Shown here: positions 29,342-56,058 of the stretch, one piece after another
Position numbering within the stretch: position 1 is the stretch's first letter
How the letters are laid out: each line of letters begins with the position of its first letter
From: a virus
Strand: one strand, 5' to 3'
IMG/VR virus record: IMGVR_UViG_3300018890_000001
Coordinates: 1 to 64,000 of that record
DNA length: 64,000 bases
Notes under the pieces: model-generated
What the model saw: only the letters and a program-made list of their open reading frames with translations
Told to the model about the DNA's origin: nothing
The model's database searches: none
Program-made: the position numbers and the translations under genes

Positions 29342-29720
29342 TGTGTTTCCTCCATTCTTCGTATTGAACCTTGATTTTCTCGGAATACTTGGCAAACAAA
29401 CGTGAATCTCGCTGTGTCCATTCAAATTCATTTCCGGTAATAAGCCCCTTTAGTAAATAAGAAGGGTACTTGCCAAGTTCTGGAATCGTACAGTTTGTGC
29501 GCCCTTGATAAAGGTGGGGATGTGCAATACCGTTTTCGTCAACATAATCGCGATCGATGCGACGGATTACTTTTCCAATTATTTCACCAGAGGTGCTATG
29601 GCGCACAATATCTCCTGGTTGGTACAGATACTGAGGGTCTGGTTCTGGTAGGGGCATATCGGCTTGACATCCCCACATCTTGCATTCTCGTGTACCACAC
29701 GTTCGTTTGCAGTCTTTCAT
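29322..29720 (-). CDS. Hypothetical Cys-rich protein downstream of RNR
   Basis: 132 residues from MKDCKRTCGTRECKMWGC; five Cys in the first 18 residues suggest a metal or redox site. PGDIVRHSTSGEIIGKVIRR looks like a small barrel. It overlaps the RNR stop by 4 nt (ATGA-type), so it is coupled to RNR and may serve it. Confidence 0.55.
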   Translation of the reverse strand: MKDCKRTCGTRECKMWGCQADMPLPEPDPQYLYQPGDIVRHSTSGEIIGKVIRRIDRDYVDENGIAHPHLYQGRTNCTIPELGKYPSYLLKGLITGNEFEWTQRDSRLFAKYSEKIKVQYEEWRKHNETETE

Positions 29721-30883
29721 GTTTGTGGTTCCGACAATGGTATCAAGCACTTGTCGGAATCGCAAGCTGCTGGTCCTTCGACTTCCTCTGGCGAAGTGTA
29801 CCTAGAAAGTGCTTTGTAGAAATCGTCGCAGGTGCGTCGAGCTTCTACTTCTTGGCAGAGACAGTCATAAGTTTCTCGGGTGATCGGTTGAAAAGGCATT
29901 CGGGGGAACGTTTCATATTCATCGAAGCGGGCGAGGATCGCTGCTGATACGTAACCTTCGTCATTTTGGATTGCATCAAAAATAGCTTTCGCTAAATCGG
30001 CAACTTCATGTTCTCGCACCTCAATTGTCGCTGAAGTGTTGTGGGTGGTGTAGTTTTTCTGCACATTCAGGTAGTAGTCAAGTTGGGCGGTTGCTGAAAA
30101 TTGACTAATATCGATTTTTTCTACACCAGGTAAGTTGGCCCAGCTCACGGCAGTCGGAATTTCAATCAACCATTCAGTGCAGCGCTCATCAAACGGATCG
30201 TCGAGCAATTGTCCGTTTTCGTCTTTGTCGGATTGTGCCGGTACGACCGTATATCCGTACTCGATCGCAGCAAGGGCGATCGGATTGTTTTTGCCGATCG
30301 TAATCCTGCGAATAAACCACTGTGCTTTTGGCGGATGCCAACCTGGAGACGCACCTGTCAGCAAAGCTTTGCTGCCCGAGGGCTGGATCGTATTACATCG
30401 ATTCGGACACTTCAACCCATGTTGATCGCAATAATCTCGCACCGTAGTTTCGACTGTTTTTCGCCAGCGCACTAAGTAAGCCGTTTCGATATCTCGATAC
30501 AGCGTCCCAAAATTCCAACCAGATTCGTCAACGAGTTCATAATTGTCAACATAAATGTCGAGTAATTGGGAGATTTTTTGAACATTTTGCTCAACTATTG
30601 GTTGTGGATAAAAGTCTGGGCGACCATCAGCAAACCATTGCAACCATTTAGCTCCTAGTGCATTGACACAGAAATCAAACCAGCCAGTAAAGGAAACTCC
30701 GACAATCGGATCGAGATCGCGACTGTACTGATATAGTGGCTCTGCAAATTGGTGTTGAAGCAAAGTCGAAACGAGTAAGCCGCCAGCGTAAAAAGCAGTA
30801 TCCTGTTCTTCTAAATTGAATGGATCAAGTTGGTTAAGGTGTACCTCAGAGAGATTACATAAAAAATTTGAGCCGATAATTTC
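29717..30883 (-). CDS. nrdJ: Class II ribonucleotide reductase, exon 2
   Basis: The C-terminal 388 residues of an adenosylcobalamin-dependent ribonucleoside-triphosphate reductase of the Lactobacillus leichmannii monomeric type. It starts E-I-I-G-S-N-F-L-C, where Glu and Cys correspond to E410 and C419 of that enzyme, includes NTIQPSGSKALLTG, and ends with the CDSDKC redox pair (C731/C736 equivalents). The frame seems to start at a TTG formed by the last intron bases, but the true protein is made by joining to exon 1. Joined length is 788 residues, close to the 739 of the model enzyme. Supplies dNTPs for replication without oxygen dependence. Confidence 0.92.
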   Translation of the reverse strand, partial: EIIGSNFLCNLSEVHLNQLDPFNLEEQDTAFYAGGLLVSTLLQHQFAEPLYQYSRDLDPIVGVSFTGWFDFCVNALGAKWLQWFADGRPDFYPQPIVEQNVQKISQLLDIYVDNYELVDESGWNFGTLYRDIETAYLVRWRKTVETTVRDYCDQHGLKCPNRCNTIQPSGSKALLTGASPGWHPPKAQWFIRRITIGKNNPIALAAIEYGYTVVPAQSDKDENGQLLDDPFDERCTEWLIEIPTAVSWANLPGVEKIDISQFSATAQLDYYLNVQKNYTTHNTSATIEVREHEVADLAKAIFDAIQNDEGYVSAAILARFDEYETFPRMPFQPITRETYDCLCQEVEARRTCDDFYKALSRYTSPEEVEGPAACDSDKCLIPLSEPQT

Positions 30884-31132
30884 CAATTTGTTATCCCAAG
30901 GGCTTTTTATCCTTTGGTTCTACAGATTTAAGTTTTCTGTAGGTCGGCGTACTTTTTGTATGTATATTCTTGTTACATACCTCCGCACTCTTGCCAATTT
31001 TATATTCTCTTTCGAGGTTCAATTGGTACGCTCTACGGTGTCATGAGTTTTTTGGCTCTCGTGATTACCTCGGAATTGGCGTTTCAGCTTTCTCCGATTT
31101 TGCGAAGTTTTTAACGTGAGGCAAAATTATCT
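30884..31132 (-). ncRNA. Group I intron in the ribonucleotide reductase gene, 249 nt
   Basis: Exon 1 ends CGTGTGGU and the intron starts AGATAATTTTG. The exon end pairs with the internal guide GCCTCACG to form P1, with a U.G pair exactly at the 5' splice site (one internal mismatch). The intron ends in G, and the 3' exon GAAATTATC pairs with GATAATTTT in the intron to form P10. These are the defining group I features. Splicing restores N-P-C-G-E across the junction in frame. The intron holds no reading frame and is near the minimum size for this class. I could not lay out the P4-P8 core with certainty by eye. Confidence 0.82.
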
Positions 31133-32332
31133 ACCACACGGATTTAGACCTAATCGCGATAAGCGATGATCTAACTCTTTAACAGGCATTGACGGATAAC
31201 CATCTTGCATCCATTTTCGAGATTCACCGCGATCGTAGGCTTCTAAGAATGAGGTTCTAAGGAGTTCGTTTGTAAGTAAATCTACATTGCATCTCGCAAC
31301 CGCTTCGCCACCCCATTGGATCGCTCCTTCACCAGAGCGATATTGTTTAGCAACAGATTCTTTGCATTCTTCAAGTGTGGGTTTATGATGAAATACAAGC
31401 GAGTGATTAGCCATTCTTAAAGCATCACGCTTTGGATCAATACGCCAATTTCCTTCCGTATCTTGCCCCCAAAGATTGTCCTTAGCGGATGCTCCGATTT
31501 TGTCGTTATGATTGAACTGTCGAATTCCTGCTGTTCGCCTAACGTTTCCGGCAACAATTACAATTGCCGCTTCATCAATTAACAAACTGCACTCAACTGA
31601 ATTCAATCTGCGCCCGATTGCCCCATTTAATATTAAAGCGCACTTATCAAACAATTCGGGTAGTTTGATAGGGTTGGAAATGCCTCCGAACCCCTTAAGC
31701 TTTTCGCCAGCAGGACGTACAGAGCCTAGTCCAATATGGACTTTGATTGGTTCGTTAGCCAGATAACTACAATCGAACGCTAGATTGATCAACGCTTGAT
31801 ATGCGTCCACCCAACCTTTGCGGCTATCTCCAACCCAAATCACAGATGTTATTGAGTTGTTGATCTGTTTAGTTTCATTTTTTCGTTGGTGTGGTGCGTA
31901 CTCACCAATTTCAGAGAAGATTTCAATCTTCAGTTGATTGCGGACTATCGGCAGGCGATCGATACAATCTTCAGTTAGGACTGCGCCAGTGCCGCAACCT
32001 TGCATTCCTAAATCCATCAACAAACCAAAAACTTCCAAGGATGTCAGCTTTAAACTGGTGCAGTTGTAAGCTCCTGGGAAGTTTTCTGGTTGTTCTATCC
32101 ATTCTCGGCCGCCTACCCAAAGCCAGCGACCGGACGATAGACATTTGAAATTATACTGTTGCTCGTACAATAGGTCGTACTCCTCTTCACTTAACTTTCC
32201 TAGCTTTGAAATACCATCAATTGTCCGATCGCACACTTCTTTCCAGGTTTCTCGGACACCGTTGTTGTTGTGTGAGTAGGAACGAAAAAATACAAATGGG
32301 GCTGATGGTGCATTTTCTGGGAACATTGGCAT
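31133..32332 (-). CDS. nrdJ: Class II ribonucleotide reductase, exon 1
   Basis: The N-terminal 400 residues, exactly 1200 nt. The start at MPMFPENAPSAPF is chosen for AAGGA about 10 nt upstream. Recognisable: SSGRWLWVGG, YNCTSLKL (with the redox Cys equivalent to C119), GCGTGAV, SVRPAGEKLKGFGG, AGNVRRTAGI, and the terminal LGLNPCG with the thiyl-radical Cys (C408 equivalent). The gene is cut by the intron one codon after that cysteine, the most conserved place in the protein. The unspliced message would end in Arg-stop and be inactive, so expression depends on splicing. Confidence 0.92.
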
Positions 32333-32358
32333 AATTGTTATTTCCTTGTGTTTCAATC

Positions 32359-32907
32359 CTAGAATGGTAGCTCTAGTTGTACGTGATTGGATTTGAACCG
32401 TCGTTTGCGAGGTGATCCGGGTTGAATGTTTTCCCAGCGTTTCCCACTTATAATTTTAGACACGTTAGAACCCGATATCTCGAATTTGTCGGCAATTTCT
32501 TTGTGTGTGTATTTACCACTTTGCCCAAGCTTTCTAATTTGCAAGATTTGCTTTTTGTTTAGCTTGGTATTACCAGATCCGATCTTTTTTTTGTGGGTTC
32601 CGTGTCTAATTTTATCAGCGGTGTTTTCAGCTTTTGTCCCCCATTTCAAATTGGTAAGACAATTGTTTAATCGATCGCCATCTCGATGACAACCTTCGTA
32701 ACTAGAGTCTGGTGGGTATCCGTAGAAAGCGAGTAACACCACGCGGTGTAGTGCTTTTAACTTTCCCCTTATTCTGACATAAAAATAACCGTCACTGAGT
32801 ATCCAGCACGGTTGTTTTTTTTCTAACAGAAAAACATTTCCAAATATATCGACTTCATATTCGGGGGCGTATGGTATTGGTTTTTGGAATAATGCTGGTT
32901 GCAGCAT
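32359..32907 (-). CDS. HNH homing endonuclease (NUMOD4-HNH type), free-standing
   Basis: A 182-residue protein. NUMOD4-like start (YEVDIFGNVFLLEKK), an HNH core LHRVVLLAFYG...CHRDGDRLNNCLTNLKWGT, then a helix-turn-helix DNA-binding tail (LGQSGKYTHKEIADKFEISGSNVSKIISGKRW). It lies 26 nt upstream of the RNR gene in the same direction. Free-standing nucleases next to an intron-bearing gene can drive spread of the ORF-less intron (collaborative homing), which fits here. Catalytic residues look intact. Confidence 0.88.
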   Translation of the reverse strand: MLQPALFQKPIPYAPEYEVDIFGNVFLLEKKQPCWILSDGYFYVRIRGKLKALHRVVLLAFYGYPPDSSYEGCHRDGDRLNNCLTNLKWGTKAENTADKIRHGTHKKKIGSGNTKLNKKQILQIRKLGQSGKYTHKEIADKFEISGSNVSKIISGKRWENIQPGSPRKRRFKSNHVQLELPF

Positions 32908-54861: not shown

Positions 54862-56058
54862 ATGTATAAAGCTTACAAGTACAGAATTTACCCCACAAGT
54901 GATCAAGAGGTTTTGCTCGCAAAATCTTTTGGGTGCGCACGATGGTTCTGGAACTACGCTTTAAACCTGTGTCAAGAAACCTACAAGCATACTGGTAAGG
55001 GATTGTCTAGGGGCTACATACAAGGCTTACTTCCTACACTCAAAAAAGAGTACGAATGGCTAAAAGAGCCATATGCTCAATGTTTGCAGGCGGTTGCGCT
55101 CAATCTATCTACAGCCTACAAAAACTTTTTTGAGAAGCGGGCGATGCCCCCAAAGTTTAAAAACAAGTACAGTAGACAGTCGATCAGCTATCCGCAAAAC
55201 ATAAAGTTCGATGGGGACTATATCAACTTACCTAAGATTGGTCTAGTTTTCTGTCGAAGACACCGTGATTTCGTAGGTGACATTAAAACTGTTACCGTTT
55301 CTCGAAACCCAGACGGTAAACACTTTGTTTCTGTTTTGATTGACGACGGGAAAGAACACCCTGAGCTAGTCGCAGTAGATAAGACTATTGGCATTGACGT
55401 GGGGTTGACTCATTTTGCAGTCACCAGTGATGGTTCTAAATTTGACAATCCCAAGCATTTCGTCAAGCGTCAACGGAACTTAAAGCGCAAACAACAGAAG
55501 CTTTCTCGCAAAAAGAAAGGCAGTCAAAACCGGAAAAAGGCAAAACGGGCTGTAGCCAAAGTCCACTCCAAAATTGCCAGATGTCGCGAAGATTTTCTAC
55601 ATAAGCTATCCCGCAAGATAGTCAACGAAAACCAAGTTATTGCAGTAGAAAATCTCAATATCAAGGGCATGGTCAAAAATCATAATCTAGCCAAAGCTAT
55701 TAGTGACGTTGGTTGGGGGATGTTTTGCACGATGCTTAAGTACAAGTCGAAGAACGAAGGAAGAAGACAATACGTCGAAATCGATAGATGGTTCCCTAGC
55801 TCTAAGACTTGCCATGTATGCCTAAATCAAATCAAGCAGCTTACGCTTGACGTTAGAGCATGGACTTGCAAACATTGTGAAACACACCATGACCGTGATA
55901 TCAACGCAGCAATCAATATTAGAAATGAAGCCTTGCGGATTTTGGCATTAGGAATTAGTGCTTCTGCCTGTGGAGGGGATGTAAGTCGATCCGGTAAAAC
56001 TTCGGTTTTGTTGGACGCTATCCCCATTGAATCAGGAAGCCAGACGATGACCGATTAA
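54862..56058 (+). CDS. tnpB: TnpB RNA-guided nuclease
   Basis: 398 residues, full length. N-terminal MYKAYKYRIYPTSDQEVLL, OrfB zinc-ribbon protein layout. RuvC-like residues: D in GIDVGLTHFAV, E in AVENLNIKGM, D in HDRDINAAINI. Zinc finger from CHVC and CKHC. The C-terminus (GGDVSRSGKT...) is encoded over the right end, which serves as the guide RNA scaffold. It cuts DNA at sites matching its guide next to TTGAT-type motifs, which keeps the element in place. All key residues are present. Confidence 0.93.
   Translation: MYKAYKYRIYPTSDQEVLLAKSFGCARWFWNYALNLCQETYKHTGKGLSRGYIQGLLPTLKKEYEWLKEPYAQCLQAVALNLSTAYKNFFEKRAMPPKFKNKYSRQSISYPQNIKFDGDYINLPKIGLVFCRRHRDFVGDIKTVTVSRNPDGKHFVSVLIDDGKEHPELVAVDKTIGIDVGLTHFAVTSDGSKFDNPKHFVKRQRNLKRKQQKLSRKKKGSQNRKKAKRAVAKVHSKIARCREDFLHKLSRKIVNENQVIAVENLNIKGMVKNHNLAKAISDVGWGMFCTMLKYKSKNEGRRQYVEIDRWFPSSKTCHVCLNQIKQLTLDVRAWTCKHCETHHDRDINAAINIRNEALRILALGISASACGGDVSRSGKTSVLLDAIPIESGSQTMTD

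Follow-up and report, generated by a model that had tools for sequence, protein, structure and literature searches.

The interrupted nrdJ gene

The window analyzed here, a stretch of 64,000 nucleotides, is part of a virus record of 199,763 bp that carries endolysin, tail-fibre and terminase-like genes. On the minus strand of the window lies nrdJ, the gene for a class II (B12-dependent) ribonucleotide reductase (RNR), which is split by a 249-nt insert (31132..30884). The features of the locus, in the direction of transcription, are as follows.

32359..32907, minus strand: free-standing HNH endonuclease gene, 182 aa (HNH_3, E 6e-10; phrog_59 HNH endonuclease, E 2.3e-37)
31133..32356, minus strand: nrdJ exon 1, residues 1-408 of the joined frame, ending in NPCG (phrog_367 ribonucleotide reductase, E 1.2e-73; Pfam RNR-II insertion domain)
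31133..31140, minus strand: 5' strand of P1, CGUGUGGU, at the end of exon 1, with U.G at the splice site (7/7 pairs kept in 18/18 rows)
30884..31132, minus strand: probable group I intron of subgroup IA type, ORF-less and 249 nt long, with an in-frame UAA as its second codon (host-only covariance model R1, 222.3 bits; covariation)
31123..31130, minus strand: 5' strand of P10, AUAAUUUU, with its partner GAAAUUAU at the start of exon 2 (2/8 pairs changed on both sides)
31115..31122, minus strand: internal guide sequence GCCUCACG, the 3' strand of P1 (drawn structure and homologue alignment)
31101..31107, minus strand: 5' strand of P3, CUUCGCA, with its partner UGCGGAG further 3' (6/7 pairs doubly changed, 100% of cells paired)
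30946..30951, minus strand: 3' strand of P7, the guanosine-binding helix, UACGCC, with its partner G-(A bulge)-GCGUA (100% of cells paired, 3/6 pairs doubly changed)
29717..30883, minus strand: nrdJ exon 2, from EIIG to the stop in the joined frame (phrog_367, E 9.7e-58)

The insert separates NPCG (AAT CCG TGT GGT) from EIIG (GAA ATT ATC GGC). Reading of nrdJ proceeds through ...LGLNPCG into AGA UAA and resumes 249 nt further on at EIIGSNF. The length of each exon is divisible by three, the joined exons form 796 codons with no internal stop, and a shift of either intron boundary by a single base breaks the frame. The original prediction had placed a 249-nt insertion between these two motifs, with a reading frame restored exactly by splicing, and both statements hold to the base. 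It had also described an ORF-less intron with an HNH gene directly upstream of nrdJ, which is what we find: the last base of the intron is G, no ORF of note lies inside it, and the HNH gene immediately precedes exon 1. For nrdJ itself, an ATG near 32332, after AAGGA, is a more likely start than the TTG at 32356.

Both nrdJ exons are open and conserved along their whole length. Comparison with the nrdJ of a sister virus, L110, gives identities of 0.71/0.82/0.40 at the three codon positions, indicating purifying selection. A search of the virus record with PF02867 matched no other RNR. This blank leaves room for another class II enzyme, however, because PF02867 also fails to detect the known nrdJ of the window. 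Elsewhere within the virus genome, a transposase gene lies at window positions 54862-56058 (phrog_506, E 2e-131).

RNA structure and covariance-model searches

P1 of the insert is CGUGuGGU/GCCuCACG, and a U.G wobble occupies the 5' splice site in 18/18 rows. P10 (AUAAUUUU/GAAAUUAU) has 8 consecutive pairs in the window and is paired in 83-98% of cells among homologues, and every intron extracted ends in a guanosine. P1 with U.G at the splice site, a final G and a P10 pairing, which the original prediction had regarded as drawable, are each present in the insert. In the drawing of the window sequence, P4 is UCGGA/UCCGA, P5 is short, P6 is GGU/ACC with an additional P6a, and P8 is GUAUGUA/UACAUAC. 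P9 and P9.2 were also drawn; in the window, P9.2 contains a single A.C mismatch.

Covariation was assessed in 18 homologues, brought together in a sequence alignment that is independent of the structure. P3, P4, P5 and P7 are paired in 100% of cells, with double changes in all four, and P8 is paired in 76% of cells of this MAFFT alignment. The hairpin P7.1 between P7 and P3 (helices 9 and 10) is paired in 100% and 75% of cells, again with double changes; its presence places the window intron in subgroup IA (IA1 or IA2). Over the whole drawn structure, 95.1% of cells are paired and 38/69 pairs show double changes. Shuffled controls were paired in 80.4% of cells, with 0/500 shuffles reaching the observed values. 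Slid partners paired in 33-45% of cells, a comparison that favours the drawing because it was made on the window sequence; the double changes sit in other sequences.

R1, a covariance model built from ten cyanobacterial introns with the phage sequence left out, gives the window intron a score of 222.3 bits (rough E 3e-57) and matches nothing else in the 199,763-bp record. Rfam model RF00028, in gathering and permissive scans, gave no usable score for the window intron, which falls below the gathering cut-off. RF00028 also misses the homologous introns in L003, L031, L025, L079 and Bacillus phage PJN02, as well as the published intron of cyanophage Pf-WMP3; it does find the T4 nrdD intron, which served as positive control. 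Since the homologues and the Pf-WMP3 intron are missed as well, the silence of RF00028 reflects a gap in the model. The group I core anticipated from a covariance search is thus recovered with the homologue-built model and not with RF00028, and R1 and the covariation together strongly support a group I intron at the radical-cysteine motif of class II RNR. In other parts of the virus record (G000), RF00028 gives weak sub-threshold matches at 95038-95230 (plus strand, 13.6 bits) and 148011-148297 (plus strand, 10.5 bits).

From its sequence, the insert is in all probability a group I intron. That it might be a dead, unspliced interruption, and nrdJ a pseudogene, is very unlikely: Rfam is silent on the insert and splicing is deduced from sequence, which would suit such a reading, but the core helices are all intact, with compensatory changes, and both exons are open and conserved throughout in a gene under purifying selection relative to L110. 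The suggestion that the insert is a SAM_alpha riboswitch or other structured RNA is most improbable, since SAM_alpha, although it tops the sub-threshold Rfam matches (20.2 bits, E 0.04), scores far under its gathering score of 36 bits, and the matching stretch shares bases with P1-P3 and runs across the coding exon.

As a group I intron, the insert would be removed in two steps. An exogenous guanosine bound in P7 would attack after the U of the P1 U.G pair, and the freed end of exon 1 would then attack after the terminal G, at which point P10 would hold exon 2 in line. The expected ligated exons carry the junction CCGUGUGGU-GAAAUUAUC. In unspliced RNA, the stop at the second intron codon would halt translation before ribosomes reach the ribozyme core. 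The phage's own NrdJ would then need splicing. The host has a separate reductase, and the wider dependence of dNTP supply on splicing that the original prediction proposed can be no more than surmised.

Relatives and possible gain or loss of the intron

Homologous introns are present in cyanobacteria. In Phormidium sp. LEGE 05292, one interrupts the chromosomal nrdJ at the identical codon boundary, flanked by hydrogenase-maturation genes, and 21/386 sampled cyanobacterial genomes (~5%) match both ends of this intron at the expected spacing. According to tblastn, all 20 host introns extracted (L003, L022-L040) split nrdJ at codons 408/409. In 20/20 introns listed, the window intron included, the opening 9 nt contain an in-frame stop. 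Stops of this kind are known to keep ribosomes out of the intron core, and their position here is consistent with such exclusion. The RIR (nrdJ) gene of Nostoc punctiforme PCC 73102 has a published group I intron (Meng et al., 2007, as cited in PMC1995217 and PMC12702839); this kind of intron is therefore already known, and the phage adds a further member to it. The Phormidium genome (G002) has a second R1 match, of 52 bits, outside nrdJ (contig C78:58375-58594). More large insertions, probably inteins, lie in nrdJ close to the intron site or downstream from it (around codons 407-417 and 571-582): after codon ~416 in L029 and L032, and also in L238, L263, L264 and L261/L262.

Some members of the intron family carry an endonuclease of their own. 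The P8 loop of the cyanobacterial nrdJ intron in L031 holds an ORF for a 344-aa endonuclease (L031:497-1531) with weak similarity to Phage_endo_I (phage endonuclease I), a NUMOD3 and zinc-finger-like cysteines. It is homologous (32%) to an ORF in the viral intron of L079, and the L033 intron retains a decayed remnant of such an ORF.

Among viruses, an exact 20-mer scan of viral contigs returned zero matches, and a looser 5' pattern returned 68 stretches with one real relative, L079. By comparison, at least 119 viral-contig stretches (L119-L237) contain the 3'-end pattern of the window intron, and R1 made 110 matches in 80 of them; at the 20 loci tested, nearly all such matches escape RF00028. 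RF00028 picked up three introns in 20 viral contigs that R1 matches strongly, and the single RF00028 match to overlap an R1 match (in L196) coincides with a weaker R1 one. These searches point to a broad group of phage introns that would be absent from Rfam's model, and so bring to light a large set that the standard model leaves unscored.

At the nrdJ site itself, R1 with default settings found no match in 30 viral nrdJ loci from the protein search (L244 and L110 included). The NPCG|E site of the viral nrdJ in L244 is occupied by a group I intron of another sort (L244:6210-6444), which scores 86 bits with Rfam and just 16.5 bits with R1. In L226, an intein-like insert (L226:8556-9780, minus strand) splits NP|CG of a viral nrdJ, and a homologous group I intron (R1 219 bits) follows two codons past it; its guide, GCCUCAG, fits the last codons of the insert, CUGUGGU, which replace the usual CGUGUGGU. 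L079 has two group I introns in its viral nrdJ (L079:5755-5558 and 5552-4382, minus strand), the first one small and ending five bases upstream of the second, with a 5-nt exon, GTGGT, between them; the joined exons read NPCGE. The guide of the second intron, GCCUCACG, matches CGUGUGGU fully only once the first intron is removed, which implies ordered splicing. The NPCG|E boundary of nrdJ is a hot spot for insertions.

The NrdJ tree places the phage gene with L110 (support 0.992), outside the cyanobacterial clade. L110, a 188-kb virus whose NrdJ is 64% identical and whose nrdJ is uninterrupted, is the closest relative found and the sole sister virus available. The intron tree places the window intron among cyanobacterial introns, beside the viral intron of L079 (0.926); this tree is midpoint-rooted and its supports are moderate (0.79-0.93), so that it is a weak guide to the direction of transfer. 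Because the phage gene groups with the intronless L110, the intron either entered the phage gene by horizontal transfer or disappeared from L110. The nine 5' exon bases CCGTGTGGT are shared by the window and every intron-bearing host gene and are found in 0/34 distinct intronless genes; L110 carries CCCTGCGGA in their place. The shared bases fit horizontal gain with co-conversion of the exon, or selection for P1 pairing.

We lean towards horizontal gain combined with loss of the P8 endonuclease. The most likely donor would be the nrdJ of a cyanobacterium or else another virus, with some adjoining exon bases transferred along with the intron. The original mover was likely the endonuclease that some family members still carry in their P8 loop and that this copy would have lost. 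It is unlikely that the intron is instead ancestral in the phage lineage and was lost by L110, with no recent horizontal gain. Precise intron loss is possible, and the comparison hinges on a single sister virus, the closest relative found. Against this reading, however, the viral nrdJ relatives from the protein search are overwhelmingly intronless, the phage intron sits among cyanobacterial introns while the phage gene does not, and the 5' exon of the window matches intron-bearing hosts rather than L110. With one group I intron family at one nrdJ codon in both a cyanobacterial virus and many cyanobacteria, the locus is a clear case of intron sharing between viruses and hosts.

The HNH gene and known homing systems

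The product of the HNH gene has a helix-turn-helix-like part at its C-terminus, and no second HNH_3 domain occurs in the record of 199,763 bp. L110 has a copy, 73% identical, in the equivalent place beside its intronless nrdJ, where the insertion site differs from that of the window at wobble positions. Identities at the three codon positions (0.75/0.86/0.45) indicate purifying selection, and the L110 arrangement shows that the HNH gene is maintained without the intron. All other viral nrdJ loci recovered lack the HNH gene of the window, among them L226 and L244, which do have an intron. When compared, the HNH gene proved unrelated to the P8 endonuclease of the intron family and to the transposase gene that precedes nrdJ in Cr-LKS4. 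In the Cylindrospermopsis phages L013 and L116, an IS605-family transposase gene lies upstream of nrdJ in the position of the HNH gene.

The simplest interpretation takes the HNH protein as an independent, free-standing homing endonuclease, with two separate selfish elements settled at one gene. The original prediction had proposed a candidate collaborative-homing pair. In such a pair, the HNH enzyme would cut an nrdJ without intron in or close to NPCG|E, the phage's own gene would be shielded by its intron, and repair would copy intron and HNH gene together. The arrangement is indeed there: an ORF-less intron adjoins a free-standing gene for the sole HNH_3 domain of the record, itself under purifying selection, in the layout of the psbA intron of S-PM2 and its free-standing endonuclease F-CphI, a case of collaborative homing (PMC6083498). 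A tie between the HNH enzyme and the intron site did not emerge. L110 keeps the HNH gene in place with an uninterrupted nrdJ, the enzyme shows no relation to the P8 endonuclease of the intron family, and other recovered viral nrdJ loci, even L226 and L244 with their introns, are without it. We consequently think collaborative homing improbable, although the L110 evidence is not decisive, because its wobble-diverged site could be uncuttable.

Slightly more doubtful still is a homing locus in transition, in which the P8 endonuclease has been lost and the intron is now served by an HNH enzyme that stood beside nrdJ before the intron arrived. L110, with the HNH gene and no intron, suggests such an order of events. 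Collaborative pairs have been proposed to arise by endonuclease turnover, with their origin stated as an open question (PMC10448857); a locus in transition, if that is what this is, would answer how they arise. With the HNH gene present with the intron in the window virus and without it in L110, the origin of collaborative homing becomes directly testable.

Among RNR genes of phages, T4 nrdB and nrdD, Twort nrdE and that of SPbeta carry group IA introns. They resemble the window intron in being group I introns at conserved motifs of RNR genes, but their host genes belong to class I or III, whereas that of the window is class II, and R1 found no match in the T4 nrdD intron. The RIR intron of N. 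punctiforme, a group I intron in a cyanobacterial B12-dependent RNR gene, is of the same kind as that of the window; the window copy differs in residing in a virus gene, without insertion sequence and without ORF.

The DNA polymerase intron of Pf-WMP3 (I-PfoP3I, group IA2; PMC3428280) is likewise a cyanophage IA intron that RF00028 misses. It interrupts a different gene, however, encodes its HNH enzyme within the intron (PMC3428280), whereas the HNH gene of the window is free-standing, and was not matched by R1. The intron of Bacillus phage vB_BsuS_PJN02 scores 183 bits with R1; here, a RecD-like helicase gene is split, with an annotated 'mobile intron protein' and endonuclease, so that gene and host differ. 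With psbA/F-CphI of S-PM2, the window shares a key phage gene that is split by an ORF-less intron and has a free-standing endonuclease gene alongside. F-CphI is of the Endo VII type and has been shown to cleave the intronless allele, whereas the window enzyme is an HNH protein known from its sequence, and, unlike in the F-CphI system, an enzyme of the window type persists beside an intronless nrdJ in L110.
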